Part shown: piece after piece, positions 4,989 through 26,067 of the stretch
Layout of the letters: every line of letters begins with the position of its first letter
How positions within the stretch are numbered: the stretch's first letter is position 1
Assembly (NCBI GenBank): GCA_029060215.1
Contig: JAIDUK010000003.1
Coordinates: 1-64,000 of the forward strand
DNA from: Alistipes sp.
GTDB lineage: Bacteria; Bacteroidota; Bacteroidia; Bacteroidales; Rikenellaceae
Reading direction: 5' to 3'
Length of the DNA stretch: 64,000 nucleotides
Translations under genes and position numbers: made by a program
The notes under the pieces: generated by a model
Database searches by the model: none
The model's input: the letters and a program-made list of their open reading frames with translations, nothing else
Told to the model about the DNA's origin: nothing

Positions 4989-6026
4989 TTAATATAAATC
5001 GATCGCCACCTTGATCGCTCCATCGCGGCGGTTTTCGAAAAGGTCGTATGCCTCGGCGATGCGGCCGAGCGGATAGCGGTGCGTGATGAGCGGCGTGGTA
5101 TCGATCTCGCCCGCCTCGATCAGCCGGAGGATTTCGGCGCAGTCGCAGCCGTCCACGCCGCCCGTTTTGAAGGTAAGGTTCTTGCCGTACATGTCGGGCA
5201 GCGGCAACATCTGCGGCCGGTCGTAGAGCGCAACAATGACAACCGTCGCATTGGGGCGGGCGCACTCCCACGCCAGACGGAACGTATCCTCCGCACCGGC
5301 CACCTCCAGCACGACGTCGGCGCCGCCACGGTCGCTGTTCGCAAGAACCGCCTCGCGACACTCCTCCGGTGCGACCGTCAGCACCTCGGGATAGTGCTCC
5401 CGCACGAATCGCCACCGTTCGGGCGATTTTTCGCAGACGATGATTCGCTTCGGGCGCTTCAATCTTGCGCAAAGCAGCGTGCAGATACCCGTCGGTCCGG
5501 CACCGATAATCAGGACCGTGTCGTCGGGCGCGATCTCCGAAATCTTCGCCGCCCAATAGCCCGTGGCCAGAATATCGCCGACGAACAATGCCTGTTCGTC
5601 GCTCACCGTATCGGGAATGCGGTTCAACCCCAGATCGGCATGCGGCACGCGGACATACTCCGCCTGCCCGCCGTCGATGCGGCAGCCCAGCGCCCAACCT
5701 CCGTCGGGATCGATGCAATTGTTCACGTAGCCGCGCTTGCAAAAGAAGCATTCGCCGCAAAAGGTCTCGACGTTGACCGTCACGCGGTCGCCGACCTTTA
5801 CGCTGCGCACCTCCGACCCGACCGCCTCGACGATGCCGACCATCTCGTGGCCGACGGTGATGCCCTCGACGGCGCGCGGCACGCTGCCGTGCTTGATATG
5901 CAGGTCACTGGTGCAGATGCTCGCGAGCGTCACGCGCACGATGGCGTCGCGAGGATCCTGCAAGGCGGGGTTCGGCTTGTCGAGCAGTCCGAACCGGCCG
6001 TGTTCGATATAGGTATAGGCTTTCAT
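4989..6026 (-). CDS. zinc-dependent alcohol dehydrogenase (MDR family)
   Basis: GHEMVGIVEAVGSEV, CxxCxxC-type zinc site (CGECFFCKRGYVNNC), Rossmann GAGPTG. Confidence 0.9.
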   Translation of the reverse strand: MKAYTYIEHGRFGLLDKPNPALQDPRDAIVRVTLASICTSDLHIKHGSVPRAVEGITVGHEMVGIVEAVGSEVRSVKVGDRVTVNVETFCGECFFCKRGYVNNCIDPDGGWALGCRIDGGQAEYVRVPHADLGLNRIPDTVSDEQALFVGDILATGYWAAKISEIAPDDTVLIIGAGPTGICTLLCARLKRPKRIIVCEKSPERWRFVREHYPEVLTVAPEECREAVLANSDRGGADVVLEVAGAEDTFRLAWECARPNATVVIVALYDRPQMLPLPDMYGKNLTFKTGGVDGCDCAEILRLIEAGEIDTTPLITHRYPLGRIAEAYDLFENRRDGAIKVAIDLY

Positions 6027-6077
6027 CGTATTCTGTTTTCGTTACAAATTTAATCATTATTTACATACAAAATAAAA

Positions 6078-6105
6078 TACCGGAGCCGCACATGATGCGG
6101 CTCCG
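6078..6105 (-). terminator. hairpin CCGGAGCCGCA-CATGA-TGCGGCTCCGG
   Basis: Perfect inverted repeat downstream of the 6227..6514 gene; near-identical hairpin at 7350-7379. Confidence 0.5.
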
Positions 6106-6226
6106 GCTGCAATAAACAACTGATGGAGCACGATAGATTTCCTATCGAAAGAGACGCGTGCAACCCTGCTCCGGGGTTAGGACGGATGCTCCCCGTTCAA
6201 TCTGCGGGGAGCATCCGTGCGTCGGT

Positions 6227-6514
6227 CTATTCCTCTTCGCTTTCGAACCACTCGCGGAAGTAGTCGTAGAAGCGCTCTTTGGTCCTATCCGCCATGCGAT
6301 CGAAGTTCGTCAGGATGAACTCGCGACCTTCGGTATTCCACTCGGCCGGGGTCTCGATAGCCCGGAAATTTACCGGTTCGACGATTACGCCTTCGTACTC
6401 TTCCAACAATTCGCGCGCCTTGCGAGCCATGTCACGCACCTCATCCGTCGCCTGCGCCCAATTCGTAGCATTCTTCGGGAATCTCTCTAAAAACCGTTCG
6501 ATGTTCGTCCTCAT
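6227..6514 (-). CDS. hypothetical protein
   Basis: 95-aa ORF preceded by conserved promoter repeat. Confidence 0.6.
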   Translation of the reverse strand: MRTNIERFLERFPKNATNWAQATDEVRDMARKARELLEEYEGVIVEPVNFRAIETPAEWNTEGREFILTNFDRMADRTKERFYDYFREWFESEEE

Positions 6515-6528
6515 AATTCGCTCTTTTT

Positions 6529-6613
6529 TAGTTGTTTATCGTACTGCAAACATAACATCGTTATTCGGAACACGCAAGTTGTTCGGCGACTATTATCGTA
6601 TTTATTTTCAATA
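6529..6613 (-). promoter_or_regulatory. promoter-repeat copy 1
   Basis: Minus strand TTGC-N19-TATGTTTGC (Bacteroidota -33/-7) inside an ~80 bp repeat shared with 7182, 7812 and 8625. Confidence 0.75.
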
Positions 6614-6664
6614 GATTAGATGCTATAAAAAGATAGCGGAACCGAGCATTATCGTTGTAGGCGA

Positions 6665-6862
6665 TTATTCCGCTTTCTCGATAATTACGAACCGATCGAC
6701 TTCGGGAATGACTGCCAAGCCTCCCCATGTGCCGTGCAGTTGTCCGAGCGAGTCGATGAACTCGATCGTACCCTCCTTGCCGTCGTAACGGCTATCCTCG
6801 TCGCGAAGATGGATAATGCGAATCTTGTCGCCTACCGTTGCATTTGCATTCATCGTTTTCAT
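6665..6862 (-). CDS. DUF4314-like protein
   Basis: VGDKIRIIHLRDEDSRYDGKEGTIEFIDSLGQLHGTWGGLAVIPEVDRF. Confidence 0.7.
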   Translation of the reverse strand: MKTMNANATVGDKIRIIHLRDEDSRYDGKEGTIEFIDSLGQLHGTWGGLAVIPEVDRFVIIEKAE

Positions 6863-6937
6863 CTCTTTATGTGTTTCCCGGTTTCGGGTCTTAACCCCGC
6901 CGAGGAAGATTTCTCGGCGGGGTCGTCTCTCGTTTCG

Positions 6938-7156
6938 TCAATCAGCCGTCTCTTCCGATTCCCAACGCTCAGCGAGCAATGTAAGGATCCGGTTGTTGAT
7001 GTCGTGATTCGCATTCGATAATTCGCCGTAGCGGTTGCCGGCACGTCTGTTTTCGTCGGCAAGGCGTTGCATCTCCTTGCGGTTCTTCTCGAATTCGACC
7101 TCCAACCGGTCGAGTTCGGCGTCGATTTCCGTTCTTTTTCGATTCGCTGTATTCAT
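6938..7156 (-). CDS. hypothetical coiled-coil protein
   Basis: MNTANRKRTEIDAELDRLEVEFEKNRKEM...; start placed downstream of promoter repeat (ORF-track start lies inside the promoter). Confidence 0.55.
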   Translation of the reverse strand: MNTANRKRTEIDAELDRLEVEFEKNRKEMQRLADENRRAGNRYGELSNANHDINNRILTLLAERWESEETAD

Positions 7157-7181
7157 AATCGAGTCGTTTAATAGATTGTAG

Positions 7182-7260
7182 TTCAATTGTTTATTGCACT
7201 GCAAACATAACATCATTATTCGGAACGCGCAAGTTTATCGGCAACTTAATTCAAAGAATA
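7182..7260 (-). promoter_or_regulatory. promoter-repeat copy 2
   Basis: TTGC-N19-TATGTTTG on minus strand. Confidence 0.7.
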
Positions 7261-7349
7261 TCAACTATTTATCAGGCATTTTCCATATGGTAAATATACA
7301 TTCTGTCGAAGATTCGTTGCAGAAACAATGTCCCGCCTTCGAACGGAAA

Positions 7350-7379
7350 CCGGAGCCGTACACGATGTACGGCTCCGGT
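7350..7379 (-). terminator. hairpin CGGAGCCGTACA-CGA-TGTACGGCTCCG
   Basis: Perfect inverted repeat, paralogous to 6078-6105. Confidence 0.5.
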
Positions 7380-7466
7380 CGCAATAAACAACTGAATGGA
7401 CGAAACGAGGGAAAGCCTCCCGTCGGAGGCTCGGAGCATTCGCTCCTTACGATCGGAAGTCGGTTA

Positions 7467-7799
7467 CTAATCGACCGTCCGGTATTCCCATTTGCCGTCC
7501 CGATAGAGATATTTGTAACATATATCCTCCTCGATTTCTCGTTCGTAGGCGGCAACCGATTTATAAATCCGAGGCTCGGTATCGTACCGTTCATTCGATT
7601 TCTCGAACCGGCACTCTTCGAGACGTGCCTCCACATTGATTATGTTGCCTCGTTCGACCAGTGCCATTGCCGATTCCAATGTATTGTAGTGCGCTGACAA
7701 CGTTTCGCCCAACGTATCGGGATGTCCGTCCCGCCATATATAGACGCTTTTGATTTTTCCGTCGGGAAGTCTTACTCCGATTCTTGCTCTTGTACTCAT
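7467..7799 (-). CDS. hypothetical protein
   Basis: MSTRARIGVRLPDGKIKSVYIWRDGHPDTLGETL..., 110 aa, downstream of promoter repeat. Confidence 0.6.
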   Translation of the reverse strand: MSTRARIGVRLPDGKIKSVYIWRDGHPDTLGETLSAHYNTLESAMALVERGNIINVEARLEECRFEKSNERYDTEPRIYKSVAAYEREIEEDICYKYLYRDGKWEYRTVD

Positions 7800-7811
7800 A
7801 ATACACTCTAT

Positions 7812-7900
7812 ATTAGTTGTTTATTGCACTGCAAAGATGACATCATAATTCGGGACACGCAAGTCTTTCTGAAATTATTATTGTATTTATCTTCAATATC
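7812..7900 (-). promoter_or_regulatory. promoter-repeat copy 3
   Basis: TTGC-N19-CATCTTTG on minus strand. Confidence 0.65.
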
Positions 7901-7907
7901 TTACACG

Positions 7908-8126
7908 TTATCGAAGTGCGTCGCACACCTGTCGCAATGCCTCGCGTTCATCGCCATCGAGCGAGCAGACGAAATCGTCATTGCTGTAATAGTTGCCGTC
8001 CTCGTCCTGCTCGTCGAAGCAACGCTCATCGGCGGTCGTAAGTACGGCAGCAAGGGCGCGATATTGAGTTGCGGTAATACCTGCCATCGTGTAAGTTCCG
8101 GTTTTCGTTCGGCGGAGTTTCATCAA
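7908..8126 (-). CDS. hypothetical protein
   Basis: 72-aa ORF. Confidence 0.5.
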   Translation of the reverse strand: MMKLRRTKTGTYTMAGITATQYRALAAVLTTADERCFDEQDEDGNYYSNDDFVCSLDGDEREALRQVCDALR

Positions 8127-8176
8127 CGTATCGTTTTATGCGCACCCTGCCTTTCGGCAAGGTGCGCGATTATCGG

Positions 8177-8599
8177 TTACTCGATAGGAAAGACCTCCTG
8201 CCATCCGACTCTCGATACGCAACCGGACCGGTCCGCCCGTCGGATGATATAGGGAATACTGCTGCGGTCCTTTACATTGTCCACGAACTCGTAAACCACG
8301 CAGTCGCCTTGCAGCCGGAAGCGTTGTCCTGCCGAAAGTTTATCGATCCGAGTAGCCGGCTTCAGATATTCGGATAAGCGTCCCGTGTTGCAGATCTTCT
8401 TCCAGCGGATCTCATTCGACTGCGGGTTCATCTCAACCTCGACAATCAATTCGTCCCCGTAGTCGTCTTCGGTGGTAAGCCACACCTTGACTGGTCCGTC
8501 CGCCGGAGCGAGGCTTTTAACCGTTACCTCCGAAAATATGTAATCGCTCTGCTGCCGCATATAGTTCGATGCGATCTGTTTTGCTTGTGCACTTGTCAT
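8177..8599 (-). CDS. hypothetical protein
   Basis: Start MTSAQAKQIASNYMRQQ chosen; upstream ORF extension reads through the promoter repeat. Confidence 0.55.
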   Translation of the reverse strand: MTSAQAKQIASNYMRQQSDYIFSEVTVKSLAPADGPVKVWLTTEDDYGDELIVEVEMNPQSNEIRWKKICNTGRLSEYLKPATRIDKLSAGQRFRLQGDCVVYEFVDNVKDRSSIPYIIRRADRSGCVSRVGWQEVFPIE

Positions 8600-8624
8600 G
8601 TTCGAGTGTTTTAATCGTTTATTA

Positions 8625-8712
8625 TTCAGTTGTTTATCACACTGCAAACATAACATCGTTATTCGGAACACGCAAGTTATCAGGCGACTATTATCGTATT
8701 TATTTTCAGTTG
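8625..8712 (-). promoter_or_regulatory. promoter-repeat copy 4
   Basis: TTGC-GTGTTCCGAATAACGATGT-TATGTTTG, near-identical to copy 1. Confidence 0.75.
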
Positions 8713-8713
8713 T

Positions 8714-9490
8714 TTAGGATAGCGTTGGCGAGTGTTCGAAGAGATCCATCCGCCGCTCGATCTCCTCGAAAGTCTGCCCGTATTTGAAACCTTCGGATGA
8801 CTTATTTTCGACCTTCGAGAGCAGTTGCAGTTCGCACCACAATTCAGGATGGCGGCGGCGCAATTCGGCGAAACCCGGAATGCGGCAGTTGGGGCAAAAC
8901 CAGCAACCGCCCCGATGCGAGGTTCGGTAGAGAGGCGACAGCAGACCGTATTCTTCGCACTTGCGTCGGGCATCCGCCTCGGTGTATCCGTACTTGGCGA
9001 GCAGACTCGTTTTACGGATATACCCTTTGTCCTGCATCCGCACGAGGCGTCTCGGCTCGTCGACCGCGATGCCGACGTACTGCACGACGCCACGCTCTCG
9101 GTAACGGGCGTAATAGCGATGTATGGGCCGGATTTTGAGGTCGCGGTTGGCGCAGCACTTGCCGCCGATGAGCCAGCCGCGCAGCATCCCCTTATGCGTA
9201 CCGCTCCCTATGACCGTATGGAATAACGTAAGATAGTCTTTCTCTGAACGGACGACATCGACCCGTACGCCCAATGCGGCAAGACGCGGGATTGCCGTCG
9301 AGTAGATCCACTCGATGTGTTCGGGCATCTCGCCGCTGATATTGCGTCGGTGGTCGAACATCACCTCCGAGAAGACGGCGGCATCGAGCGGCTCGCCGTG
9401 TTCGAGGGCAAGGAGGATCGTAGCGATCGAATCCTTGCCGAATGAACACGAAGCGATATAGGCGGGGTTATCGTAAGCGAATGTGCCCAC
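8714..9490 (-). CDS. phosphoadenosine phosphosulfate reductase-family protein (phage type)
   Basis: ASCSFGKDSIATILLALEHGEPLDAAVFSEVMF P-loop; Cys-rich C-term; GTG start at 9490 just after Dam. Confidence 0.75.
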   Translation of the reverse strand: MGTFAYDNPAYIASCSFGKDSIATILLALEHGEPLDAAVFSEVMFDHRRNISGEMPEHIEWIYSTAIPRLAALGVRVDVVRSEKDYLTLFHTVIGSGTHKGMLRGWLIGGKCCANRDLKIRPIHRYYARYRERGVVQYVGIAVDEPRRLVRMQDKGYIRKTSLLAKYGYTEADARRKCEEYGLLSPLYRTSHRGGCWFCPNCRIPGFAELRRRHPELWCELQLLSKVENKSSEGFKYGQTFEEIERRMDLFEHSPTLS

Positions 9491-9497
9491 GTCGGTA

Positions 9498-10280
9498 TCA
9501 GTAATTCGTCGTGATCCACTCCTCCTGCCGGCGGCGGGATACTTTCGAGGCGGTGATGGTGCGGTCGATCCGATGGATCGTCCAGCCGTGCCGGGCGGCG
9601 AGGCGTTCGATCTTCTCGTGCGGGAACATCGTGAGCATGAACTTCCCTTCGACCGTCGCGAGCGTGTCGAGCAGCCTCGAAAAATCCTCCTCGTCGAACG
9701 TGCCGTTGTAGTGTCCGCAGTCGCTGCCGACATAGGGAGGATCGACGAAGTGGAACGCCTCGGGACAGTCGTAACGGCGGATGATATCGATGCCGTCCTC
9801 GCACTCGACCGTAACGCGGCCGAGGCGGCAGCACAACTCCTCCGTGAAGGCTTCTTTCGCATTGCGGAGTTTCAGCGTCGTCGTGCCGCTGCGGTCGTAT
9901 CCGAACGTCCCGTCGATCATCGAGGCGAAGCCCAACTTCGTGCAAACCCACACCGCCCATGCCCGCTCGACGGACGTGAAGAACGACGGATGCTCGTTGA
10001 TATGCCGTGCGTGCGCGTGTATCTCGCGGCTGTGGAGCGTCGCATCGATCATCGCTTTGAGTGCCGCATACTGCGTCTGCGCTACGCGGTAGAAGTTCAC
10101 CAATTCGGTATTCGTGTCGTTGATGACCTCGCATTGCGCGGGCGGCTTGGCGAAGAGCACGGCGCAGCCGCCGCAGAAGGCTTCCGTGTAAAGCGTATGT
10201 TCTGGAATCAGCGGTAGGATATGCTTCAGAAGCATCTGTTTGCCGCCATAGTATGAAATCGGAGTTTTCAATCTGACCAT
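9498..10280 (-). CDS. dam: DNA adenine methylase (D12 class)
   Basis: ISYYGGKQMLLKHIL, EAFCGGCAV, FVDPPYVGSDCGHYNG (DPPY). Confidence 0.9.
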   Translation of the reverse strand: MVRLKTPISYYGGKQMLLKHILPLIPEHTLYTEAFCGGCAVLFAKPPAQCEVINDTNTELVNFYRVAQTQYAALKAMIDATLHSREIHAHARHINEHPSFFTSVERAWAVWVCTKLGFASMIDGTFGYDRSGTTTLKLRNAKEAFTEELCCRLGRVTVECEDGIDIIRRYDCPEAFHFVDPPYVGSDCGHYNGTFDEEDFSRLLDTLATVEGKFMLTMFPHEKIERLAARHGWTIHRIDRTITASKVSRRRQEEWITTNY

Positions 10281-10290
10281 AATGATTCGG

Positions 10291-10800
10291 TTATCGGAGT
10301 TTGAGGAATAAGAACAGCAGAAGCGTCAGTGCGACGAGCGCCGTCGTCCACTTGAGCCATGCGACACCGGAAGATGGTTGCTCATCGGTCTGCTCCTGCA
10401 CGTCGTTGCGGGCTGCCGTGTTGATGCGGCTATGCGAAATGCTGTCGGTAAGGATCGTGCGGTCGTTCTGCATCGATACCTCGGTATAGGAGATGCGCTT
10501 GACCGGCTGTCGGGAAGCACTCGTCGCCGGAATCTTCGGCGGCGGAAGAACGGCACGGAGCGTGTCGGTCGGATTCGGGAATCGATCGTCGCTCGGTTCC
10601 GGATATTCCGCCGGCGGATAAAACTCCACGACGGTTCGGCGGAGCGTTCCGATCTGCCGCTCGAACTCCTGCCGGAACAGCATCGTAAGGGTCGAGTCTG
10701 TGATAGCGAGCGTCTCGTGCCGCTCGGATCGCGTGCTTCGGAGCGGAGAGCAGCCGCTGGCGGCGATCGTCAGGATAATCAGGGTTATTTTCGGATACAT
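10291..10800 (-). CDS. small lipoprotein with C-terminal TM, candidate unimolecular spanin
   Basis: Lipobox LTIAASGC; C-terminal WLKWTTALVALTLLLFLFLKLR. Confidence 0.6.
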   Translation of the reverse strand: MYPKITLIILTIAASGCSPLRSTRSERHETLAITDSTLTMLFRQEFERQIGTLRRTVVEFYPPAEYPEPSDDRFPNPTDTLRAVLPPPKIPATSASRQPVKRISYTEVSMQNDRTILTDSISHSRINTAARNDVQEQTDEQPSSGVAWLKWTTALVALTLLLFLFLKLR

Positions 10801-11144
10801 CGTTTCATTTCTTCGATTCGTTCCATGCGTTCCTGCATGGTCGGTTCTTGTTTGGGTGAAGTCGTCGGCTTTTCCCACGGCAGCGGGAACATCTCGGTCA
10901 TCGGGCGGCGGTCTTTGCGGTCGAGTTGGATACAGGTCGCAACCCATACCGCCCACCGTTCGCGTTCCCATGCCTGCCGCTGCCGGTCTTCCTCGCATTT
11001 CGCCCAGCCGAGCCACGCATAGATGAACTCGGCGGGCGTCAGCCGTTCGAAGGCATCGGGTGCCAGTCCCATCTGCCCGACGGCGATGGCGAACCACCGC
11101 TCGTAGGTTACCGCTTGCGGCTCCCCGTCGTCGGGCGTTTCCCG
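10785..11144 (-). CDS. tail assembly chaperone, -1 frame extension (gpT-like)
   Basis: Frame open back through slippery A_AAA_AAC at 11150-11144; expressed as fusion to 11108..11467 product. Confidence 0.75.
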   Translation of the reverse strand, partial: RETPDDGEPQAVTYERWFAIAVGQMGLAPDAFERLTPAEFIYAWLGWAKCEEDRQRQAWERERWAVWVATCIQLDRKDRRPMTEMFPLPWEKPTTSPKQEPTMQERMERIEEMKRCIRK

Positions 11145-11467
11145 TTTTTTGAGAGGTCGCCCAACTTATCCGTCAGCGGCGCGATACTCTCGACGAAGAG
11201 TTCCGAGACAGCGAGAATGAGCGACGGCTCTTCGTCGAAGATGTCCCACACCTCGTCTTCGGTGTAACGACGGTCGCTGCCGGCACGCCGTGCGCCCTCG
11301 TTGAGTCCCGTAGCGGTCAGCGCGACGATGCTGTCCAACGATCCGAGGGCTTCGGTAGAAGCGACCGTCTGCCCGAATTCCGCACCGCGCTGCTTGACGA
11401 ACTCGTCGATGGCGCGCAGCCCGAAGTGGATCGGGTGCGGCGTGCCTTGAATGATGATCTCTTTCAT
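11108..11467 (-). CDS. tail assembly chaperone (gpG-like)
   Basis: Follows major tail protein; contains slippery heptamer near 3' end. Confidence 0.75.
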   Translation of the reverse strand: MKEIIIQGTPHPIHFGLRAIDEFVKQRGAEFGQTVASTEALGSLDSIVALTATGLNEGARRAGSDRRYTEDEVWDIFDEEPSLILAVSELFVESIAPLTDKLGDLSKNGKRPTTGSRKR

Positions 11468-11472
11468 AGCGG

Positions 11473-11913
11473 TCAGGATTTAGGTTTGTCTACCGGAGTC
11501 AGGTTGCCGCTACCGGTAAGCGAATAACTGTAAGAGGCATTGTCGCCCGCAGGCGTCGAGAGCGAGAAGGTCGTGATGTAGGCTTTGCCCGTGTACATCT
11601 TCGCAAGTCCCGTGAGCGGCGACTTGACGACCACATCGACGAGTTTCTTTTGAAGCACCAAGTCGAGGACTTCCTCGGCGGTATGGCTGTTCCCAATCGA
11701 ATCGTCGATGACCACCAGCCCGTCGCCGTCCACCGACCACGTAACGTCGCCCGGAGCTTTCTCCTTGCCGTTCGTATCCTTCGTGCGGAACTCCTTCATC
11801 TCCAGATCGACCTTCAGCGTATGGCTCGTGGCGTGGAGCGTCGTCTTCTCATCCACCAGAACGATGATGTCCTCGCCCTGCACGACCCGTTTGGTTCCGA
11901 TCGTTTCCGGCAT
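11473..11913 (-). CDS. major tail (tube) protein
   Basis: Position in HK97-type order; MPETIGTKRVVQGEDIIVLVDEKTTLHATSHTLKVDLEM. Confidence 0.7.
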   Translation of the reverse strand: MPETIGTKRVVQGEDIIVLVDEKTTLHATSHTLKVDLEMKEFRTKDTNGKEKAPGDVTWSVDGDGLVVIDDSIGNSHTAEEVLDLVLQKKLVDVVVKSPLTGLAKMYTGKAYITTFSLSTPAGDNASYSYSLTGSGNLTPVDKPKS

Positions 11914-14936: not shown

Positions 14937-15863
14937 ATGACTAGCTGCAATTATTTTAACTATTTTTGTAAAAATGTTTGTTTTATGTCGAATATTCACC
15001 TCATAAATTTCGATACGACAGACCGAAATAAATGGTTAAGCACAATTGCCGAAGCATCGGAAACGCATAGAGATTGCAAGTCGAATGACCATATTATTCT
15101 CGGATTCAACGGCATAAATGGCACAGAGAAAATTACGCCTATACATATCGTTTCACTTGCCTGCCTTATCGAATCTCTCGCAAGAAAACATGTTATTGTT
15201 CATATTCAAAATAGAGAAACGAATGCTGTAAGCAATTTTCTTTGGGAAAATTTAAGATTCAGAGAATATTGGGCTGGCGGACAAAATTTTGTTCCAGCAC
15301 AAGATACCAATGTTTTCAACCTTTGGCGAATCATCGATAATGAAAAAGAAATACACAGTAGAAGAATACACGACTATTTAAAACAAACATTTTTCCAACA
15401 TAAGGATTTAAGCGCTGTTCAGAATAGTTTGGATGAAGTTTATTACAATATTTTTGATCACGCAAATGCAGATGGGAACGCTTTTTCTTTTATTTTTTAT
15501 GACAAAGAAAATGAAAAATTGCATGTAGCAGTTTGTGATTTCGGTATCGGAATTGCTAAATCCGTTAGAAATGCATTGCCGGAAATCCCTGACGATATGG
15601 CAGCGTTGCTTAAAGCAATGGAATATAAATTCACCACCGGATCACAAACTCATAACATGGGTATGGGACTCGGCAATATCAAGGATACTTGTACTGAAGA
15701 CGATATTTTAGGTATTATCAGCAATAAAGGATGTCTATTTGCCAAGAGAGAAAATATGCGTGCTTACGAAAATACTTTCTATTTCCCCGGCACGTTAATA
15801 TATTACGAATTATCACTCTCTCATTTTGAAGAAGAGGAAATTATTGATAACTTTGCACTATAA
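14937..15863 (+). CDS. GHKL (HATPase_c) ATP-binding protein
   Basis: N-box DEVYYNIFDHANADGN, G1 VCDFGIGIAKSV, G2 MGMGLGNIKD; AT-rich. Confidence 0.75.
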   Translation: MTSCNYFNYFCKNVCFMSNIHLINFDTTDRNKWLSTIAEASETHRDCKSNDHIILGFNGINGTEKITPIHIVSLACLIESLARKHVIVHIQNRETNAVSNFLWENLRFREYWAGGQNFVPAQDTNVFNLWRIIDNEKEIHSRRIHDYLKQTFFQHKDLSAVQNSLDEVYYNIFDHANADGNAFSFIFYDKENEKLHVAVCDFGIGIAKSVRNALPEIPDDMAALLKAMEYKFTTGSQTHNMGMGLGNIKDTCTEDDILGIISNKGCLFAKRENMRAYENTFYFPGTLIYYELSLSHFEEEEIIDNFAL

Positions 15864-15877
15864 TTAAGGAGGTAAAT

Positions 15878-16159
15878 ATGTGTTCGATTAATTTACAAGC
15901 AATCATGGCAAACAAGACCTATCCGGAGGCCGGAGAAATTTTGTTTGATATACTTGCTGAAAAGATTAAAAGTGAGACCAAAATTGTTCTGGACTTAGAC
16001 GGAGTAGTTTCTCTACCTTCCATGTTTTTGAATATGTCCATAGGTAAATTCATTGAAACCTATGGTGTAGACTTATTACGTCAAAAAATTTCATTCGCTA
16101 AAATAAGCGCTACACAAGCAGAACGAATTAAAGACTACATTAATAGAGTTTCAAAATAA
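15878..16159 (+). CDS. STAS-like domain (DUF4325) protein
   Basis: KIVLDLDGVVSLPSMFLNMSIGKFIETYGVDLLRQKISF. Confidence 0.75.
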   Translation: MCSINLQAIMANKTYPEAGEILFDILAEKIKSETKIVLDLDGVVSLPSMFLNMSIGKFIETYGVDLLRQKISFAKISATQAERIKDYINRVSK

Positions 16160-16197
16160 AAAAGCCTCATTGAAATGAGGTTTTTTTATTTTCGAAG
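16160..16197 (+). terminator. intrinsic terminator
   Basis: AAAAAAGCCTCATT-GAA-ATGAGGTTTTTTTATTTT. Confidence 0.85.
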
Positions 16198-16310
16198 TCG
16201 TAATTGCAAACTCTCGACCAGCCGCTTTCTCGCCCGGCTTTCGGCGGCGGCACGGTCATTTCGTTCCGGTTGCGGTGCGTGTTCGCGCAGATATCCAGTC
16301 GGCTGGTCGA
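16196..16310 (-). pseudogene. truncated duplicate of prohead protease C-terminal coding sequence
   Basis: YLREHAPQPERNDRAAAESRARKRLVESLQLRLRK vs protease EYLREHAPQPERNDRVVAECWARKRLVESLRIKQ. Confidence 0.85.
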
Positions 16311-16473
16311 GAGAAAATGGGCATACGGCCGATTTTACGGATGCTCCAATTATCCGAAATGCAAGTTCACGCATCGTTGCTGAAGTGTTATTTTTTCATT
16401 TCTGAACACGATTTGCCGATAATAATCAGGAATAATACAGCATTCTGAAATAAGAAAGTATTATCTTTGCAGT

Positions 16474-16800
16474 ATGAATATTCGGGAGCATATCGCAGAT
16501 AAATTGATTGTCTCAGGCGGGTTCTGGTCGTATGACAAGACATCCGTTCGGGAAAATATGTCCGACGATCAACTGATAGGAGCCGCTCTCGAAAAACTCG
16601 ATTTAGACGATATCGATTTGTTGTTCCGGCTTTTTCCCGCAAAGAAAATCAAAGATGTTTGGCGCCGGACGATGGTCGTGCAGGGCGATTACTATTATTC
16701 GCTCAATCGTTTTTTCGCTTGGTATTATTTCGGCATTCGTTATCCGGATCGCTATCTGAAAGCGATGATGACGCGCCACCTTTCAAAATTAACCGCATGA
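16474..16800 (+). CDS. DUF6922-like protein, partner of AbiEii-type nucleotidyltransferase toxin
   Basis: ATGA overlap with downstream AbiEii-like N-terminus; own promoter TATCTTTGC at 16463. Confidence 0.55.
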   Translation: MNIREHIADKLIVSGGFWSYDKTSVRENMSDDQLIGAALEKLDLDDIDLLFRLFPAKKIKDVWRRTMVVQGDYYYSLNRFFAWYYFGIRYPDRYLKAMMTRHLSKLTA

Positions 16801-16955
16801 GAGGTATAGCCGAACATACCGAAGCAATTATCGAACGAGTATCCCGACTCGAGTGCATCGAAGAATGGACGCTTGTCGGCGGTACGGCGTTGGCTATCCA
16901 ACTCGACCACCGTAAGAGCGAAGATCTCGATTTCATGCGCTGGCAAACACAATAA
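16797..16955 (+). pseudogene. AbiEii/AbiGii-type nucleotidyltransferase toxin, truncated
   Basis: LVGGTALAIQLDHRKSEDLDFMRWQTQ* ends after 52 aa. Confidence 0.75.
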
Positions 16956-17042: not shown

Positions 17043-17685
17043 ACTGCTTGATCCGTAAACTCTCAACCAGTCGCTTTCTTGCCCAGCATTCGGCGACAAC
17101 TCGGTCATTTCGTTCCGGCTGCGGTGCGTGTTCGCGCAGATACTCGGCTTTTCGCTCTTCGAGATGCCGCACCGAGGCTTCGGTTTCGGGATAGGCAGGA
17201 AATACCACGAGCGACACATCCACCACACGAGAGAACCGGAGTATCGTCCGCTCGTCCATCGCAAGACCGTTCTGTTCATCGGCATACTGCCACTCGTCTT
17301 GCTCGACGCCGAAGCGGAACGAACATTTCGAGACGTCGCCCCGGCGTACCAGTTCCAGCATATCGTTTCCCAAAGTCGTATTCGGAGCCTCGAATGCGAA
17401 GCGCAGACCTACGTCGTCTACCTCCAATCGCAGCGTACCGCTCGTCGTGCGGGCGAGAATCGAATCGGTGTTATGGTTGAAACACATGATGACATCCGAC
17501 AGATCGCATCCATCGAACGCTCCCCGAGCGATCTTCTCCCGGAACCACCCCATAATAGGGTCGCTCCAACTCTCGAACTTCGCGGCATAGCCGACGATCG
17601 TCCGGCTGACGGTCCCCTCCTCGCGGCTCTCGATATGCAGATCGCCGACAAGGCTCCGGCTCTCTATTTCATTGTTCAGTTCCAT
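17041..17685 (-). CDS. HK97-family prohead protease
   Basis: VSRTIVGYAAKFESWSDPI..., FNHNTDSILARTTSGTLRLEVDDVGLRF; adjacent to portal. Confidence 0.9.
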   Translation of the reverse strand: MELNNEIESRSLVGDLHIESREEGTVSRTIVGYAAKFESWSDPIMGWFREKIARGAFDGCDLSDVIMCFNHNTDSILARTTSGTLRLEVDDVGLRFAFEAPNTTLGNDMLELVRRGDVSKCSFRFGVEQDEWQYADEQNGLAMDERTILRFSRVVDVSLVVFPAYPETEASVRHLEERKAEYLREHAPQPERNDRVVAECWARKRLVESLRIKQ

Positions 17686-18889
17686 TCGTTTTAAGTTTTA
17701 CGGCAGTCGTTACCGGCTGCATGTTCATTTGTACGAAGTATTCGTCGCCGCCATCGTAGGAGTTCATATCTTCGAGAGAGCGGATTTCGTTGGCAGACAT
17801 CGCACCGACGATATTCATATTCTTGTAGTATTCCGAGCGGGTTTTGGCATCGCCGCGCAGCAGTCCGTTCAGGCCGAAGAGGAAGTAATACTCCCCGAAC
17901 TCGTCCTCGCGGAGCAGTTTGCGATTGAACTCCTCCTCGATGCGGACGAGATACGGCATCAGGCAATACTGCACGAACTCCATACCCTGATGCTCGATAT
18001 TGTTGTTCGTAGCACGTTCCAAATCGGCGATCATATGGGGCGGGATGCCGTAGATGGTAGCGATCTCGGTCTTTTGGAATTTGCGCGTGGCGATGAACTG
18101 TGCATCTTCGGGAGGAATGGAGATGCGTTCATAGGTCATACCTCCCTCCAATAGCAGCGGGACGTGGGCGTTGTGCAAACCGACCGATTGGGCGATGAGG
18201 TCTTTCTTGAGACGCTGGTAGGCTTCGGGCTTGAGCGTCGAGGGATATTTGAAGACGCCCGACATATTGCCGCCCTGATCGAAGAAGCGTTTGCCGTAGA
18301 GTTGCGCCGAAACGGAGAGTGCGAGGTTATCGCGATGGACGGCGATCGGGCTTTTGCCCTTGTAGCCGTTGGTCGAGAGACCACGCAGATGGATGACGTC
18401 CTCGTTCGGGAGCAGTTCGCCCGTGTTCAAGCGGTAGAACAATTCGTCGTTGTCGGTAAGGAGCGGTTCGATACGGGCAGGATGAATGAATTTCAGTCGA
18501 ACGGGACGGTAGCGTTTGTCCCGAAAGATGCGGACATAGCCGTTGCCCCACAGAGCGCACGAGACCATCAGATGGTGCATCAGGTCGAAACGTGTGGAAT
18601 AGGAGTTGGGGACCTGTACGAGTCGGTGGCAGAGATGGCCGTACTGTCGCTCCCGGCCACGCACAGTACGGCGATAGAGATGCAAAGGGAGCGTTCCGAC
18701 CGTTTCGGAGAGGATTCGCACGCAAGCCCAAACCGCTGTAAGGTTCAATGCGCCCTCCTCGGTGATATACGGCTGGTGCGTGGCATCGGCGACCGTGTCG
18801 GCGGTAATGACTTTATTCACCGCCGCCTCGAATTCGGCCGATGAAATGTCGCGCCGCTCGCCCCTATGCAAAAATGGGAACCACTTCAC
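17669..18889 (-). CDS. phage portal protein
   Basis: LNLTAVWACVRILSETVGTLPLHLYRR; EIATIYGIPPHMIADLERATNNNIEHQGMEFV. Confidence 0.95.
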   Translation of the reverse strand: MKWFPFLHRGERRDISSAEFEAAVNKVITADTVADATHQPYITEEGALNLTAVWACVRILSETVGTLPLHLYRRTVRGRERQYGHLCHRLVQVPNSYSTRFDLMHHLMVSCALWGNGYVRIFRDKRYRPVRLKFIHPARIEPLLTDNDELFYRLNTGELLPNEDVIHLRGLSTNGYKGKSPIAVHRDNLALSVSAQLYGKRFFDQGGNMSGVFKYPSTLKPEAYQRLKKDLIAQSVGLHNAHVPLLLEGGMTYERISIPPEDAQFIATRKFQKTEIATIYGIPPHMIADLERATNNNIEHQGMEFVQYCLMPYLVRIEEEFNRKLLREDEFGEYYFLFGLNGLLRGDAKTRSEYYKNMNIVGAMSANEIRSLEDMNSYDGGDEYFVQMNMQPVTTAVKLKTNGTEQ

Positions 18890-18952: not shown

Positions 18953-19372
18953 CTATCCCGAAATTATTTCATTTGTCAATCTTTCTAAATTTTCTTCTCT
19001 GACACGGGGCTTCAACTGACATTGCCAGACCGTGAGTACGCGATATCCGAGTTCTTCCAGTTCACGTTTTTTTCGTTCGTCCCGTTCTAAATTATCCGCG
19101 ATCTTTTTCTCCCAATATTCGAGATTGGTCGATGGCAGATGAGAATACTTACATTCTTTATGTCCGTGCCAAAAACAGCCGTTCACGAATACTGCAGTCT
19201 TATATTTCGGGAAAACGATATCCGGCGTACCCGGCAATCGCTTTACATTCTTCCGATACCTCAAACCGCGCGCGAAAAGGTATTTCCGGACTACTATTTC
19301 GGGTTTCGTCTCTTTTCCCGTTACATGGGACATTATCTCCGAACGTTTCTCTTTGCTGACCGTATCCGCCAT
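18953..19372 (-). CDS. vsr: very short patch repair (Vsr) endonuclease
   Basis: RSEIMSHVTGKETKPEIVVRKYLFARGLRYRKNVKRLPGTPDIVFPKYKTAVFVNGCFWHGH. Confidence 0.95.
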   Translation of the reverse strand: MADTVSKEKRSEIMSHVTGKETKPEIVVRKYLFARGLRYRKNVKRLPGTPDIVFPKYKTAVFVNGCFWHGHKECKYSHLPSTNLEYWEKKIADNLERDERKKRELEELGYRVLTVWQCQLKPRVREENLERLTNEIISG

Positions 19373-19375
19373 AGT

Positions 19376-21247
19376 TTATTTTATGATGATCCGTTCTTTA
19401 AGGCGGTCCATATTTTCCTTACGAGTTTTCTTCGTATAGCCGAGTTTCTCGCAAACAGCTTCTATTTTCTGACAAAAGACATCTGCATTCAGTCCGGTCA
19501 TACATAATTCGTTATTTTCGTTTCGTTCCGTGCAATGCCATAATGCTTCATCGTTCAAAGGATGTTGCGGTTTGAACGGAGGAATATTGAATATCCTATT
19601 ATCTACTTGAGTAATCCAAGAAGCGCCGATTTCGGTCATCGCTCCCCATGCGCCAGGCGTATTGTCGCTCGTAACGAATATTACGAAGATTTTTTGATTC
19701 GAGTAGCTCTCGACGAAAAAATCTCTTAAATAATTGTAAATCGAAGTCGTTCCTTCCGGAATACGACTCGCTTCATCATCGCAACTCGTATACAATATAT
19801 CTTCCGGAGGAACTCCATTGAATATCAAAAACGAATATATCAGATCCGCCAGACCTTTATCTTTCGAAGCATGACTGATAAGGATTTTCTTCTTCTGGGA
19901 ATCTACGACAGTTTTCAAACCCAATGCTTGTGCATTGTCGTTGATCGCTTCGGAGATGACTCGTTCGATAGTTTCTTTGGAAGAATCCGGTGCTAATTTT
20001 CCGATTCCAGCAGCGGCATTTTCGCTCACTCTCGTTTTGAATGTATCTACCGCAGCTCGAAATCTCGCTTCATTGTCTTTTTGTTTTTCCAACTTTTGTT
20101 GCTTCTTTTCTTTATTCGCTTCATCGGTATATGCTATCCTTTTTCGAATAATATTCGGGAGAAGCCGGTCTCTGACATAATTCGTTACGGCAATATAGCG
20201 AGGATCATCGGATTTATAACCCTGTCTATTGCTCAATGCCATATCCGGAAGTTCGGATAATTCGAATAAATCTACATATAATTGACCGACGATATAGACC
20301 TCATTCAGTTTGTTCTGTCCGACGATCGGCAATATATTGAACTCGCCTAATTTTTTATTGGCATATAATGAAATAAAATTATCGGGGAAATCCGTAAGAG
20401 CGGCTTTTCGACCTCTGGTAGATTCATATGCTCCGATCCACCCTTTCATTTCCAAAATATATTCCCGTTCTTCTCCGGAATTGTTTTTCAAAGTCAACGA
20501 TTCCGTATACGGTTCTCTATTTTCGACTAAATCGGAACGTTTATAAGGATATTTATCTGGAACAAACTTGCTTAACCGGGCAAATTCATCCCCCAATGAG
20601 ATGAAAGCGCATAACTCTTTCGCTACATTTTCATCGAAAGTATCGATTGTAATATTTTTGTCTCCTCCGATGATATGGATCTTAAAATCATCATTGACTA
20701 ATGGAAATATTTTAAGGAGATTGCGTTTTACCGAATCGGATGTTTTATTCAGTCTATATCGAGGGTTCCGCATTACAATCGCTGTTCCGTTGTTTTCGAT
20801 ATGAGCGAATACTATCTCCTCGTCCGGTATGGCTTTCAATTTATTTCCATCAAAGGGTATTCGTGCGAGAACGAATCCCGATTTTTCGCCGTTGCTGATG
20901 GTCATGACATCGACCCATTCGGAAACGGATAATGCCGCTAATTTCCCGACTCCTTTCCGACCCATTTTACGACGATTACCGGAGCGCGTTTTCGCTTCAT
21001 CTTCATTGGTTCGCGAAATACCGGCGACATGCAGGAATTTTCCGACTTCGCCTTTCTCATACGACATGCCATGTCCATCGTCTTCGATGCGGATATCGTT
21101 CTCGCCAGAAATTATATATACGTTATGGGCATCCGCATCATAAGCATTGGCGATGAGTTCAGCCAATACATAGTAAATGTTCGTATAAAGGTTCGGCCCC
21201 AGCAGCTCCAATATTCTCGGGTCAACATCCAATTCGTATTCCTTCAT
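19376..21247 (-). CDS. GHKL ATPase fused to C-terminal TIR-like domain
   Basis: ELIANAYDADA, IEDDGHGM, GRKGVGKLAA; C-term KKKILISHASKDKGLADLIYSFL...IFVTSDNTPGAWGAMTEIGASWI. Confidence 0.85.
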   Translation of the reverse strand: MKEYELDVDPRILELLGPNLYTNIYYVLAELIANAYDADAHNVYIISGENDIRIEDDGHGMSYEKGEVGKFLHVAGISRTNEDEAKTRSGNRRKMGRKGVGKLAALSVSEWVDVMTISNGEKSGFVLARIPFDGNKLKAIPDEEIVFAHIENNGTAIVMRNPRYRLNKTSDSVKRNLLKIFPLVNDDFKIHIIGGDKNITIDTFDENVAKELCAFISLGDEFARLSKFVPDKYPYKRSDLVENREPYTESLTLKNNSGEEREYILEMKGWIGAYESTRGRKAALTDFPDNFISLYANKKLGEFNILPIVGQNKLNEVYIVGQLYVDLFELSELPDMALSNRQGYKSDDPRYIAVTNYVRDRLLPNIIRKRIAYTDEANKEKKQQKLEKQKDNEARFRAAVDTFKTRVSENAAAGIGKLAPDSSKETIERVISEAINDNAQALGLKTVVDSQKKKILISHASKDKGLADLIYSFLIFNGVPPEDILYTSCDDEASRIPEGTTSIYNYLRDFFVESYSNQKIFVIFVTSDNTPGAWGAMTEIGASWITQVDNRIFNIPPFKPQHPLNDEALWHCTERNENNELCMTGLNADVFCQKIEAVCEKLGYTKKTRKENMDRLKERIIIK

Positions 21248-21275
21248 TTTCGAAAAGATCGGGATAAATGTATAA

Positions 21276-22340
21276 TTATTTTTCGGTTAGTTCGGATAAA
21301 TGGGCTCGTATGCTTTCCGCTATTATTTCCCCCAGCTTCGGAGGTACGGCGTTGCCGATATATCTCGATGCTTTGGTGATCGCGACATACTGCTCATCGG
21401 CGAAAAACTTATACGTTTTCGGAAATGTTTGTATAAGGGCGGCCTCTCTGACCGATATCGCACGGTCTTGGGTCGGGTGTCCGAATCTTCCGTTTCCCAA
21501 TCCGGTACATTGGGTAGTCATCGTAGGAGCCGGTTTTTCCCAAACCATTCTGCCGTAAACGCTTCCGAACGAACTGCCGCCATCCGTTTTATGGCATCGT
21601 AGTTTCAACTTTTCCGGCCAATCTTTCCATCCTCCGCCGTACGGAGTATTTCGAATACGATCGAGATTCTTCGGCGACAATGCTTTGGCTCTGTGCAAGG
21701 GATCGTTCGGATCGACCTCTCCGGCTTTCAGTTCCGGCAGGTCGCCTATCGCATCTTTAACGGTTTTATATTCGTTCGGCTTATGCGTAGGCGGAATCAA
21801 TTCGATTTTACCCAATCGCGACGCCAACAGCACCAATCGTTTCCGTGTTTGAGGAATTCCGTAATCCGGACAATATACAGGCTTCACCCAAACTCGATAG
21901 TCGTTTTCTTTCAAAAGATTCACGAAATCGGATAACACCGGTTTATCTTTGAATGCCAGAATTTGAGAGACATTCTCCATCGTGACTATATCGGGCAACG
22001 TATCTTTTACCAACCGTCCGAATTCATATAGCAAATCGTATTTATTCGGATCCTTTTTTTTGTTTTTGAACGCATACGAAGAAAACGGCTGGCAAGGAGC
22101 GCATCCTGCTAAAACCCTAATAGCATCTTTACCGTACATTGCACCGATTTCATTGGCGGATACCGTTTTGATATCTTTATAAATGAACTTCGCTTCGTTA
22201 TTCGTTTCATAGGCATATCGGCATGTGGCATCGAGATCGTATCCTGCAAGTATATCGAAACCCTTGCTTTTCATACCGAAACTCAAGCCGCCGATGCCGC
22301 AAAACAAGTCTATGACTTCTATTTTTCGAGATGCAATCAT
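21276..22340 (-). CDS. dcm: DNA (cytosine-5) methyltransferase
   Basis: DLFCGIGGLSFGM, GCAPCQPFSSY, TMENVSQIL, PQTRKRLVLLAS; ATGA overlap with upstream ORF. Confidence 0.95.
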   Translation of the reverse strand: MIASRKIEVIDLFCGIGGLSFGMKSKGFDILAGYDLDATCRYAYETNNEAKFIYKDIKTVSANEIGAMYGKDAIRVLAGCAPCQPFSSYAFKNKKKDPNKYDLLYEFGRLVKDTLPDIVTMENVSQILAFKDKPVLSDFVNLLKENDYRVWVKPVYCPDYGIPQTRKRLVLLASRLGKIELIPPTHKPNEYKTVKDAIGDLPELKAGEVDPNDPLHRAKALSPKNLDRIRNTPYGGGWKDWPEKLKLRCHKTDGGSSFGSVYGRMVWEKPAPTMTTQCTGLGNGRFGHPTQDRAISVREAALIQTFPKTYKFFADEQYVAITKASRYIGNAVPPKLGEIIAESIRAHLSELTEK

Positions 22341-22672
22341 CTTTTTTTCCTTAAAACTTTACAAATATAATAATTTTGATTCGAATATCTATTCAACACC
22401 CTCCTGAATGAACTGAATTCGGAGTATCTGCGCTTTCCCGTGATGGTGATGTAGAAATCCTCCAACCGTTCGTAAGCCTCCAACTGCGTCGGATAGAGGT
22501 CGCGCATACGGAGGTAGAGTTCCGCGAAGCCCTCGAACGAGAGGAAATGCCGCACTTCGGGTTCGAGGGGATTCATCGCTGACAGTTCCGCCTCGACTTT
22601 CTCGCGCTCGGCGGCGATGACCGGCGAATGATAACGCTTGTATTGTTTTCGGTTCATTTTTCTGCTGCTCAT
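22337..22672 (-). CDS. hypothetical phage protein
   Basis: 111-aa ORF between TerL and dcm. Confidence 0.55.
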   Translation of the reverse strand: MSSRKMNRKQYKRYHSPVIAAEREKVEAELSAMNPLEPEVRHFLSFEGFAELYLRMRDLYPTQLEAYERLEDFYITITGKRRYSEFSSFRRVLNRYSNQNYYICKVLRKKR

Positions 22673-22684: not shown

Positions 22685-24352
22685 TTATAAGGTCAATAAT
22701 CCTCTGTTTTCATACGGGTTGCTCTCGTCGTCGGTCTGTGCCGTCATCCACTCCCCGAGTGCCATGATCGCCGCGACGATGCCGTCGATCTTCTGCGTCG
22801 ATTTCTCCTTGTCGGGTTTGATATTGCCCGCAGGATCGGTCTTGACGAGCGTCGACGCGAGCATCCACCGCAGGACCGGATTGCCGAAGTGTTCGATCTT
22901 CCCGGTCAGCACCAGTTTTTCAAACTCCTTGGTCGGCGCCGACATCGAGCCGTAGCCCTGTCCGAAGGGATTGCACTCCATCCCCTCGTTCTGCAAGTCG
23001 ATGATCGTCTGCGAAGAGTTCCAGCGGTCGTAAGCCGATGTCCGCAAGTCGTAATCGGCTACGATACGCAGGATATCCGCCTTGACGAAGTCGTAATCGA
23101 TGACATTGCCCGGCGTAACGGTTACATAGCCCGTTGCCACCCACTTGTCGTAGTTGATATTCTCCTTGCGGACCTTTTCCAGCATCTTCTCTTCGGGAAT
23201 CCAAAAGTACGGCAGCAATTGGAAACGGTCGTTCTCGTGGAAGAGCAGCACGTAGGCCGTAATGTCCGATACGTTCGAAAGATCCAAACCGCCCCAGCAG
23301 GCGCAGCCTTTCAGGTCGGCAGGGTCGGTCGTACCGATACACTTCAGCCAAACGTCGTCGAGTATCCACGTCCGCTCGGCATCGACCCACAGATCGACGT
23401 TCTTCGTCATCACGTTGCGGACGGCTTCGGGACGGTTCTTGGCGTCTTTCACTTGGTCGGCGAGGTAGTCGGCGCTCAAACTCACGCCGAGGTTGGGATT
23501 GGCCTTGATCCACATCTTCGGGTCGTCCCACTCCGATTTATCGTCGAGCGTGTAGATGATGCCGAATAACGAATCGTCCTCGTTCACGCCGCGCAGCACT
23601 TTGATGACGTTCTCCCGATAGGCATAGCATACTCCCGACTTGTCGAAGCCCGCCGTCGTGATGATGAACATCAGCGGTTGCCGCCGTGCGCCGAAAGCAG
23701 ACTTGATGACGTCGAACATTCCGCTGTCCTTGTGGGCGTGGAACTCGTCGATGATGCCGCAACTCGGGTTCAGACCGTCGTGCGTGCCGTAATCGGACGA
23801 GAGAGGCTTCATCGTACCGCCTTTGAGTTCATAGACGATCGAGTTGCGGTATGGCGTAAGGTAGTTTTTCAGATCGGTCGCCTTGACGATCTCCACAGCA
23901 TCCGAAAAGCATATCTTCGCCTGATCCTTGACCGTCGCGGCCGAGTAAACCTCCGGGCGGCTCTCGCCGTCGGCGAAGAGCATATACAGCCCGATGCCGG
24001 CAGACAGTGCGGTTTTGCCGTTCTTGCGTGCGATCTCGATATAAGCGTATCGAAAACGTCGCATGCCGTCGGCATTCTTCCACCCGAAGATATTCCACAG
24101 CACGAACTGCTGCCACGGCTCCAGTCGGAACCGCCGGCCCGCCCATTCGCCCTTGGTATGTTTGAGTTTCTCGATGAAGCGGATAGCGCGCATTGCGGCT
24201 TTTTTATCGAAGTACCATCCTTTGTCGAGCGCACGGTCGAGGTCGGCGTAGTAACGCTCGACGGCGAGGCGGACATACTCGCAGACGAGAATCTCGCCGG
24301 AGCGCACCTGCTCGGCATAAAGTTCGGCGGGATATTTCTTAACGGCAGTCAT
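22685..24352 (-). CDS. terL: terminase large subunit
   Basis: RRFRLEPWQQFVLWNIFGWK, IARKNGKTAL, GIIDEFHAHKDSG. Confidence 0.95.
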   Translation of the reverse strand: MTAVKKYPAELYAEQVRSGEILVCEYVRLAVERYYADLDRALDKGWYFDKKAAMRAIRFIEKLKHTKGEWAGRRFRLEPWQQFVLWNIFGWKNADGMRRFRYAYIEIARKNGKTALSAGIGLYMLFADGESRPEVYSAATVKDQAKICFSDAVEIVKATDLKNYLTPYRNSIVYELKGGTMKPLSSDYGTHDGLNPSCGIIDEFHAHKDSGMFDVIKSAFGARRQPLMFIITTAGFDKSGVCYAYRENVIKVLRGVNEDDSLFGIIYTLDDKSEWDDPKMWIKANPNLGVSLSADYLADQVKDAKNRPEAVRNVMTKNVDLWVDAERTWILDDVWLKCIGTTDPADLKGCACWGGLDLSNVSDITAYVLLFHENDRFQLLPYFWIPEEKMLEKVRKENINYDKWVATGYVTVTPGNVIDYDFVKADILRIVADYDLRTSAYDRWNSSQTIIDLQNEGMECNPFGQGYGSMSAPTKEFEKLVLTGKIEHFGNPVLRWMLASTLVKTDPAGNIKPDKEKSTQKIDGIVAAIMALGEWMTAQTDDESNPYENRGLLTL

Positions 24353-24942: not shown

Positions 24943-26067
24943 TCAGAATGCCAGACTACGCAGCCATTCGTTCAAGAAGCGATCGTATATGATATATCCA
25001 TTCGGAGCTTTGTATACCAGTTCGTTAGCGAGCAGTTTTTTGATTGCACTATTCACGCTGCTGGCAGCCCGAAGTTTATATTTGGCGATGAATTCTCCGG
25101 CCTGAATCTCCTTGACGCACCCTTCGCGGGCGATGGCTTTGAGTAAGCGAACGCTCCCTGTCGGGTAGGCTGACAACAGACTTTCGTAAGCATAGGTCGA
25201 CTCCTCGACGATCTCCCGAATGGCGAAATCGACCGTTGCGGAGTCGATAGCGACCGAATATCCGTAAAGTCGGTTCAAGATCGCCTGAATATACCAAGTA
25301 TGCCCGTCGAACCGGTCGTAAATCGTGTCGAATACGGTTCGCTCCAGCGCACGATCCTGCCCGGCGAAGAATGCCTCGGCGAAGTCATAGTAAGCCGTTT
25401 TATCGATTCGATCGATCGAAAGCGTCTGCGTACTCTGGTAAAACGGTTTTTTAGCCGAGAGGAACATCTCCTGCATGACATGCTGTTTGCTCCCCGCAAA
25501 GATGAAGTTCACGTTCGGCAGGAACTGAATGTAAGAACGCAACAAGGCCTCGACGCCTTTTTCGGGATATTCGGCAATCTGTTGAAATTCATCGATGGCG
25601 ATATAGCAACGCTTATCCGCCGATTGCAGGTAGTCGAATATCTCCTTGAGCGTAGTTTCCTCCGTTGTCGGAGCGACATCGATCGTCGCCTTGGGCAGTC
25701 CGGTCAGTTCATCGAACGTGAAAACCGGGCGGCAACTCTTGATGAATTGCGCGACACGACCCAACGCCTTCTGCGGGACAGTATCCAATCGTCCCAACAC
25801 TGTATTGGCGAACAGCCGAATGAAGTCCCCGAGGTTCTGCGTCGAATAGATGTCCATGTAAAGCGTTACCGTATCCGGCTGCCGCTCCTGCAATCGGTAA
25901 AAGACATGTCTGATCAATCCTGTTTTGCCTATACGGCGCGGCGCTATCAAGGTCAGATTGCGACCATTGTGCAGCGCCTCGATCATCGTTGCGGTTTCCC
26001 GCTCGCGATCGCAGAAATATGCGGGACTGTAGTAGCCCGAAATCAAAAACGGATTATTCGGCTTCAT
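24943..26067 (-). CDS. AAA-family ATPase with C-terminal winged-helix-like region
   Basis: LIAPRRIGKTGLIRHVFYRL Walker A, CYIAIDEFQQIAEYP Walker B. Confidence 0.85.
   Translation of the reverse strand: MKPNNPFLISGYYSPAYFCDRERETATMIEALHNGRNLTLIAPRRIGKTGLIRHVFYRLQERQPDTVTLYMDIYSTQNLGDFIRLFANTVLGRLDTVPQKALGRVAQFIKSCRPVFTFDELTGLPKATIDVAPTTEETTLKEIFDYLQSADKRCYIAIDEFQQIAEYPEKGVEALLRSYIQFLPNVNFIFAGSKQHVMQEMFLSAKKPFYQSTQTLSIDRIDKTAYYDFAEAFFAGQDRALERTVFDTIYDRFDGHTWYIQAILNRLYGYSVAIDSATVDFAIREIVEESTYAYESLLSAYPTGSVRLLKAIAREGCVKEIQAGEFIAKYKLRAASSVNSAIKKLLANELVYKAPNGYIIYDRFLNEWLRSLAF

Follow-up and report, generated by a model that had tools for sequence, protein, structure and literature searches.

The 64,000-nucleotide stretch of Alistipes sp. 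DNA analysed here (the window) carries, in a phage cargo slot, a genuine and intact representative of the known paraMORC4 family. Three genes make up the cassette, encoding a C5-cytosine DNA methyltransferase (Dcm), a protein joining a GHKL ATPase to a C-terminal TIR domain (GHKL-TIR) and a very-short-patch mismatch endonuclease (Vsr). On balance, we consider it somewhat probable that this is a prophage-borne abortive-infection cassette of the paraMORC4 kind, in which methylation would mark self and the TIR domain would degrade NAD+. Gene content, domain homology, conserved catalytic residues and a near-constant link to methyltransferases among relatives were all observed and are set out below.

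Organization of the cassette

The three genes are intact and co-directional on the minus strand, separated by gaps of 28 nt (dcm/GHKL-TIR) and 3 nt (GHKL-TIR/vsr), and are flanked by TerL and orf111 (111 aa) on one side and the portal gene on the other. The order, coordinates, identities and head-operon location proposed in the original prediction were thereby borne out, the identities through matches to PF00145, HATPase_c_3, TIGR00632 and SpbK. The features are as follows:

17669..18889 (-), phage portal, bounding the slot on its downstream side (PF04860, 8e-102)
18953..19372 (-), vsr, very-short-patch mismatch endonuclease, 139 aa (TIGR00632, 9.2e-43; PF03852, 1.4e-32)
19376..21247 (-), GHKL-TIR protein (paraMORC4-type), 623 aa (HATPase_c_3, BbrUII/HgiDII and PADLOC spbK matches)
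19433..19915 (-), TIR domain, residues ~445-605 (SpbK profile and fold match)
19631-19633 (-), codon of E539, aligned with SpbK catalytic Glu192 (invariant in 38/38 aligned sequences)
20114..21247 (-), GHKL ATPase and S5 transducer, residues 1-378 (MORC3/MORC4 fold match; invariant E30, N34, D57)
21276..22340 (-), dcm, C5-cytosine DNA methyltransferase, 354 aa (PF00145, E 8.9e-61)
22337..22672 (-), orf111, small conserved ORF of the phage, located after TerL and before the cargo slot (shared by most related phages)
22362..22369 (-), TATATTTG, candidate Bacteroidales -7-like element (TAnnTTTG), 21 nt upstream of dcm
22685..24352 (-), phage TerL, bounding the slot on its upstream side (PF03354, PF20441)

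The stop codon of orf111 overlaps the dcm start within ATGA (22340-22337); the last ~16 residues of orf111 vary among most relatives, and a family search with it gave no match. TAnnTTTG is the Bacteroidales -7-like consensus, and the TATATTTG element is a possible, weakly evidenced promoter of the cassette's own. The order Dcm, GHKL-TIR, Vsr was also found in Bacteroides pyogenes, a Parabacteroides and a Muribaculaceae bacterium, which excludes a chance arrangement.

Elsewhere in the phage region, the stretch beyond the major tail protein (11473-11913) showed no ORF of tape-measure size across window 1-11500, and further on, at 4989-6026, it includes a probable bacterial gene resembling alcohol dehydrogenases; the prophage may therefore be incomplete. 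An ATPase_2-family protein just past TerS (24943-26067) is a possible extra cargo gene of the packaging region.

The GHKL and S5 module

The N-terminal part of the 623-aa protein matched HATPase_c_3 (PF13589, E 8e-16) and the NCBIfam BbrUII/HgiDII model (E 4.3e-61), the latter at 207 bits against a cut-off of 550 and confined to residues 4-419. Proteins encoded in other genomes that join this module to a C-terminal DNase scored 717-830 bits against that cut-off, most of them adjoining dcm. The predicted link to restriction-modification (R-M) systems was upheld. The GHKL motifs E30, N34, D57, G58, G60 and G96-G101 were invariant or nearly so across relatives, and residues 7-375 of the full-length AF2 model (pLDDT 79.2) matched the ATPase modules of MORC3/MORC4 (Z 21-22), a match that also covers the S5 domain after GHKL. 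The module carries other C-termini too, including a Ymh (HEPN) domain in locus L007 and, by reading of its C-terminus, in L062. In a tree of the GHKL part, a starred branch separated all TIR forms from the proteins with other C-termini, a split to be taken as a caution as well as a result because this was a quick tree with long outgroup branches.

The TIR domain resembles the NADase SpbK

Pfam TIR models matched neither the whole window protein nor its TIR domain alone, and evidence based on SpbK was therefore used for the TIR call. The PADLOC spbK model matched residues 423-561 (E 6.6e-23), phmmer with the window protein matched SpbK (9phb, E 4.9e-8), and a profile built from 38 TIR domains matched the same entry (E 1.2e-17) and gave no other credible match. 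A structure model of the TIR domain alone (pLDDT 79.6, pTM 0.77) aligned with the SpbK fold over 142 residues (Z 12.9, rmsd 3.5), and nearly all of the lower top-ranking matches were TIR domains. By sequence and modelled fold, then, the nearest solved relative of this domain is the NADase SpbK, in keeping with the predicted fusion of TIR to GHKL. The possibility that the call was an artefact was considered and rejected.

E539 pairs in the phmmer alignment with the glutamate of the SpbK motif NEMGATW and is invariant across the 38 aligned sequences. That glutamate occupies chain position 216 of the 290-residue SpbK construct; allowing for an inferred 24 tag residues before the native start, this would be residue 192, in agreement with the published catalytic Glu192 (PMC11984713; PMC12847820), whose E192Q substitution abolishes both NAD+ depletion and defence (PMC11984713). 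S121 and Y188, two proposed NAD+ contacts in SpbK (PMC12847820), are not conserved here. The Hx[ST]xD motif of the first TIR loop is present in the window as HASKD (residues 459-463), where most relatives read SQTYxDK (QTYxD). The patterns used to gather loci sat in the N-terminal part, so TIR residues were not selected for by them; confirmation by tblastn used the whole protein.

Dcm and Vsr

Dcm has the motifs PCQPF (catalytic) at residue 82, ENV at 122, QTRKR at 164 and GNAVPP at 329, and Vsr scored 145 bits against a TIGR00632 cut-off of 98. Across most compared systems, DNase ones included, conservation of the Dcm recognition region (residues 215-289) equalled or exceeded that of the catalytic core; for the window against the nuclease systems L006, L009, L121 and L122, identity was 52-61% in the recognition region and 43-48% in the core. 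This conservation, which extends to a halophile system of the BbrUII/HgiDII family, is consistent with one shared system design. M.HgiDII makes 5mC in GTCGAC (PMC5867850), and the target of the window Dcm is probably related to that site.

Relatives adjoin two kinds of methyltransferase

Besides the window, 48 GHKL-TIR loci were collected by patterns blind to neighbouring genes, with the G230 cassette, identical to L014, counted once. A DNA methyltransferase adjoined GHKL-TIR in 46 of the 48. A C5-methylase lay within 1 kb in 33/48, usually 0-151 bp upstream on the same strand, although these are not 33 independent events because L015, L016, L017 and L059 are near copies. A further setting was class 1 DISARM (13/48), where GHKL-TIR adjoined the methylase DrmMI; these calls were made with the PADLOC DrmMI, DrmA, DrmB and DrmD models on two representatives and by tblastn for the remainder. 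L026, on a truncated contig, carried vsr alone, and L039 had no methylase within 6 kb. Vsr was found in 16/48 loci and was adjacent in fewer. At least four switches between the Dcm and DISARM settings are forced by starred branches of the GHKL tree. As far as the openly licensed literature goes, these pairing statistics and partner switches appear new.

A DrmMI survey of 274 genomes returned three matches, one of them the genome on which the survey was centred, too few to derive a frequency of GHKL-TIR in DISARM. A scan of viral contigs with a single GHKL-TIR protein as query gave no relative, whilst a three-sequence alignment recovered L061, a full GHKL-TIR, together with four other GHKL proteins. 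Against named phages, tblastn gave no full relative and two partial GHKL matches, one being a ParaMORC3 beside Dcm in Escherichia phage PhiR44_1.

Two further arrangements were seen among the collected loci. In L015, L016, L017 and L059, GHKL-TIR and Dcm directly follow a Vsr-methylase fusion and a restriction gene that appears by reading to be of HpaII type (PADLOC label REase_II). A class 1 DISARM on a Microvirga plasmid (L123, 10134-12548) has a different ATP-binding protein and an annotated O-methyltransferase after DrmMI, and HTH-Dcm-Vsr ahead of DrmD.

A variable cargo slot in related phages

The region separating TerL/orf111 from portal is a cargo slot of variable content. A portal search of 393 same-order genomes gave one distant match besides the window, and the phage comparison therefore rests on IMG/VR contigs. 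In a dozen of these (portal identity 74-81%), TerL and portal are 352-391 bp apart with orf111 alone inside, whereas the gap reaches 1.8-3.2 kb in eight phages (L066, L068, L069, L078, L080, L081, L084 and L091) and 3.8 kb in the window, with L076 intermediate. Cargo is common to L080 and L081, and to L084 and L091, and otherwise differs: a GHKL protein with a Shedu-like C-terminus by sequence reading (Pfam detects the ATPase only) in L068 and L069, a protein with a weak PDC-M63B match in L066, and lipoproteins or a WG-repeat/trypsin protein in the other filled slots. A TAnnTTTG-like element directly precedes portal, both in the window and in the relatives compared with it. As far as the openly licensed literature goes, this slot also appears new.

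The gap between protease and capsid forms another such slot; it is occupied in the window, L067, L068 and L069 and has no insert in most related phages. In the window (14937-16955, + strand) it holds a HATPase_c_2-like protein (308 aa), a DUF4325 STAS-like protein (93 aa), a 108-aa ORF and a fragment resembling the start of an AbiEii-type nucleotidyltransferase. The same site holds a C5-methylase with a Bpu10I-type nuclease in L068 (9849-11917), a DUF2971 protein (PDC-S31) in L067 (4893-5870) and an apparent toxin-antitoxin pair in L069 (10001-10544).

In the B. pyogenes, Parabacteroides, Listeria and DISARM loci whose neighbours were read, GHKL-TIR is not beside phage structural genes. Given this and the variability of the slot, the head-operon position is unlikely to be mechanistic, and the idea that it forms part of the mechanism was rejected because related phages have the slot empty or differently filled. 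The original prediction had considered the combination within the head operon under-described.

Relation to known systems

Iyer, Abhiman and Aravind (2008) define paraMORC4 as GHKL and S5 followed by a C-terminal TIR with HxSxD, in R-M-type operons with a methylase and Vsr (PMC2292703). The window, with GHKL, S5 and TIR, HASKD and flanking dcm and vsr, fits that description; the architecture is not new, and the suggestion that the TIR fusion was a new twist on the 2008 work has to be withdrawn. The text consulted gives the role as possibly nuclease or ligand-binding, and makes no mention of an SpbK-class NADase reading, of a phage cargo slot or of class 1 DISARM as an exchange partner.

Other known systems share parts of the design. 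BbrUII/HgiDII (NCBIfam NF050001; paraMORC3-like) has the GHKL module and a partner C5-methylase with the conserved recognition region, but the window protein falls far below that family's cut-off and ends in a TIR domain where theirs end in a DNase. SpbK, from Bacillus subtilis ICEBs1, shares TIR sequence, fold and the position of the catalytic glutamate, yet lacks both a GHKL module and a methylase, and its trigger is the SPbeta portal protein. VcSduA, a GHKL-Shedu of a type earlier annotated as paraMORC3 and tested as an anti-phage protein, likewise fuses a GHKL ATPase to a C-terminal effector, but its effector is a nuclease acting directly on phage, and the single gene suffices, with no methylase reported as part of the system (PMC12137116). 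GHKL-Ymh (HEPN) proteins of R-M neighbourhoods have the same sensor beside Dcm and Vsr, as in L007 and similarly L062, with a predicted RNase as effector in place of TIR (PMC3710099). Class 1 DISARM houses relatives of GHKL-TIR beside DrmMI, whereas the window cassette lies among phage head genes with no Drm gene adjoining; DrmA, DrmB, DrmD and DrmMI had no credible match among the scanned neighbouring ORFs, the Drm-model matches there being dcm cross-matching DrmMII methylase models and weak DrmA matches. We found no tested GHKL-TIR or DISARM-TIR system in the openly licensed PMC literature, judged mostly by title and abstract.

Proposed mechanism and alternatives

Methylation-gated abortive infection is the best reading of the cassette, on the strength of the SpbK-class TIR domain, its conserved glutamate and the near-constant methyltransferase pairing; the presence of other defence-like genes in the same slot of related phages also counts for a defence role. 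The cassette would have the build of a type II restriction system with a TIR domain in the place of the DNase. Dcm would methylate host and prophage DNA at its site, and methylation would thus be read as self against non-self by the GHKL and S5 module, which, as a homologue of the HgiDII/BbrUII GHKL module, may be an ATP-driven clamp responding to unmarked DNA. Clamped and clustered, the protein would activate its TIR domains without cutting DNA, and their predicted NADase activity would hydrolyse NAD+, so that the cell stops before the invading phage matures. Vsr would be an optional helper, repairing T:G mismatches that arise from 5-methylcytosine deamination at Dcm sites. A more specific claim, that an R-M system has turned suicide switch, its GHKL clamp reading missing 5-methylcytosine and firing the TIR NADase, and that the same protein serves class 1 DISARM as an exchangeable suicide module, is advanced tentatively, as something short of an even bet.

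Several observations count against this best reading. A single GHKL-TIR clade is partnered by two unrelated methylation systems, and GHKL-TIR may therefore read something downstream of methylation; L039 lacks a methylase within 6 kb; and SpbK, whose S121 and Y188 are not retained here, responds to a phage portal protein, not to DNA. One alternative is a defence cassette whose GHKL-TIR senses a phage protein or a replication or packaging intermediate, with Dcm independent or merely a stabilizing partner. The activation of SpbK, the closest TIR protein, by the portal YonE (PMC11984713; PMC12847820) and the repeated switches of methylation partner speak for it. We nevertheless regard it as unlikely, since a methyltransferase adjoins nearly every locus, the N-terminal module is that of a restriction-enzyme family and the N-terminal, portal-binding part of SpbK has no counterpart in the phmmer alignment.

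The 2008 proposal, which likens the TIR domain to the nuclease at the C-terminus of paraMORC3 (PMC2292703), would make that domain a nuclease and the cassette an ordinary restriction system. The closeness of the domain to an NADase in sequence and fold, its invariant catalytic glutamate and the replacement of HxSxD by SQTYxDK in most of the clade make this very improbable. We give equally little credence to a cassette that mainly serves the phage, with methylation hiding phage DNA from host restriction, Vsr guarding methylated sites and TIR acting as an addiction module: placement within the head operon and the start/stop coupling to orf111 would suit it, but the B. pyogenes, Parabacteroides and Listeria relatives lie away from phage structural genes and the slot also accepts other defence-like genes.

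Implications

Among the PADLOC models, the best match to the GHKL-TIR protein is that of a type II restriction enzyme (E 1.9e-28), and such loci may therefore be tallied as ordinary R-M. Because GHKL-TIR recurs in class 1 DISARM, a suicide arm may be part of some DISARM loci. If the methylation-gated mechanism holds, it would join methylation-based self recognition to NAD-depleting TIR suicide, two branches usually kept apart, and restriction enzymes would evolve by effector swaps (DNase, predicted HEPN RNase or TIR) on a common GHKL sensor.
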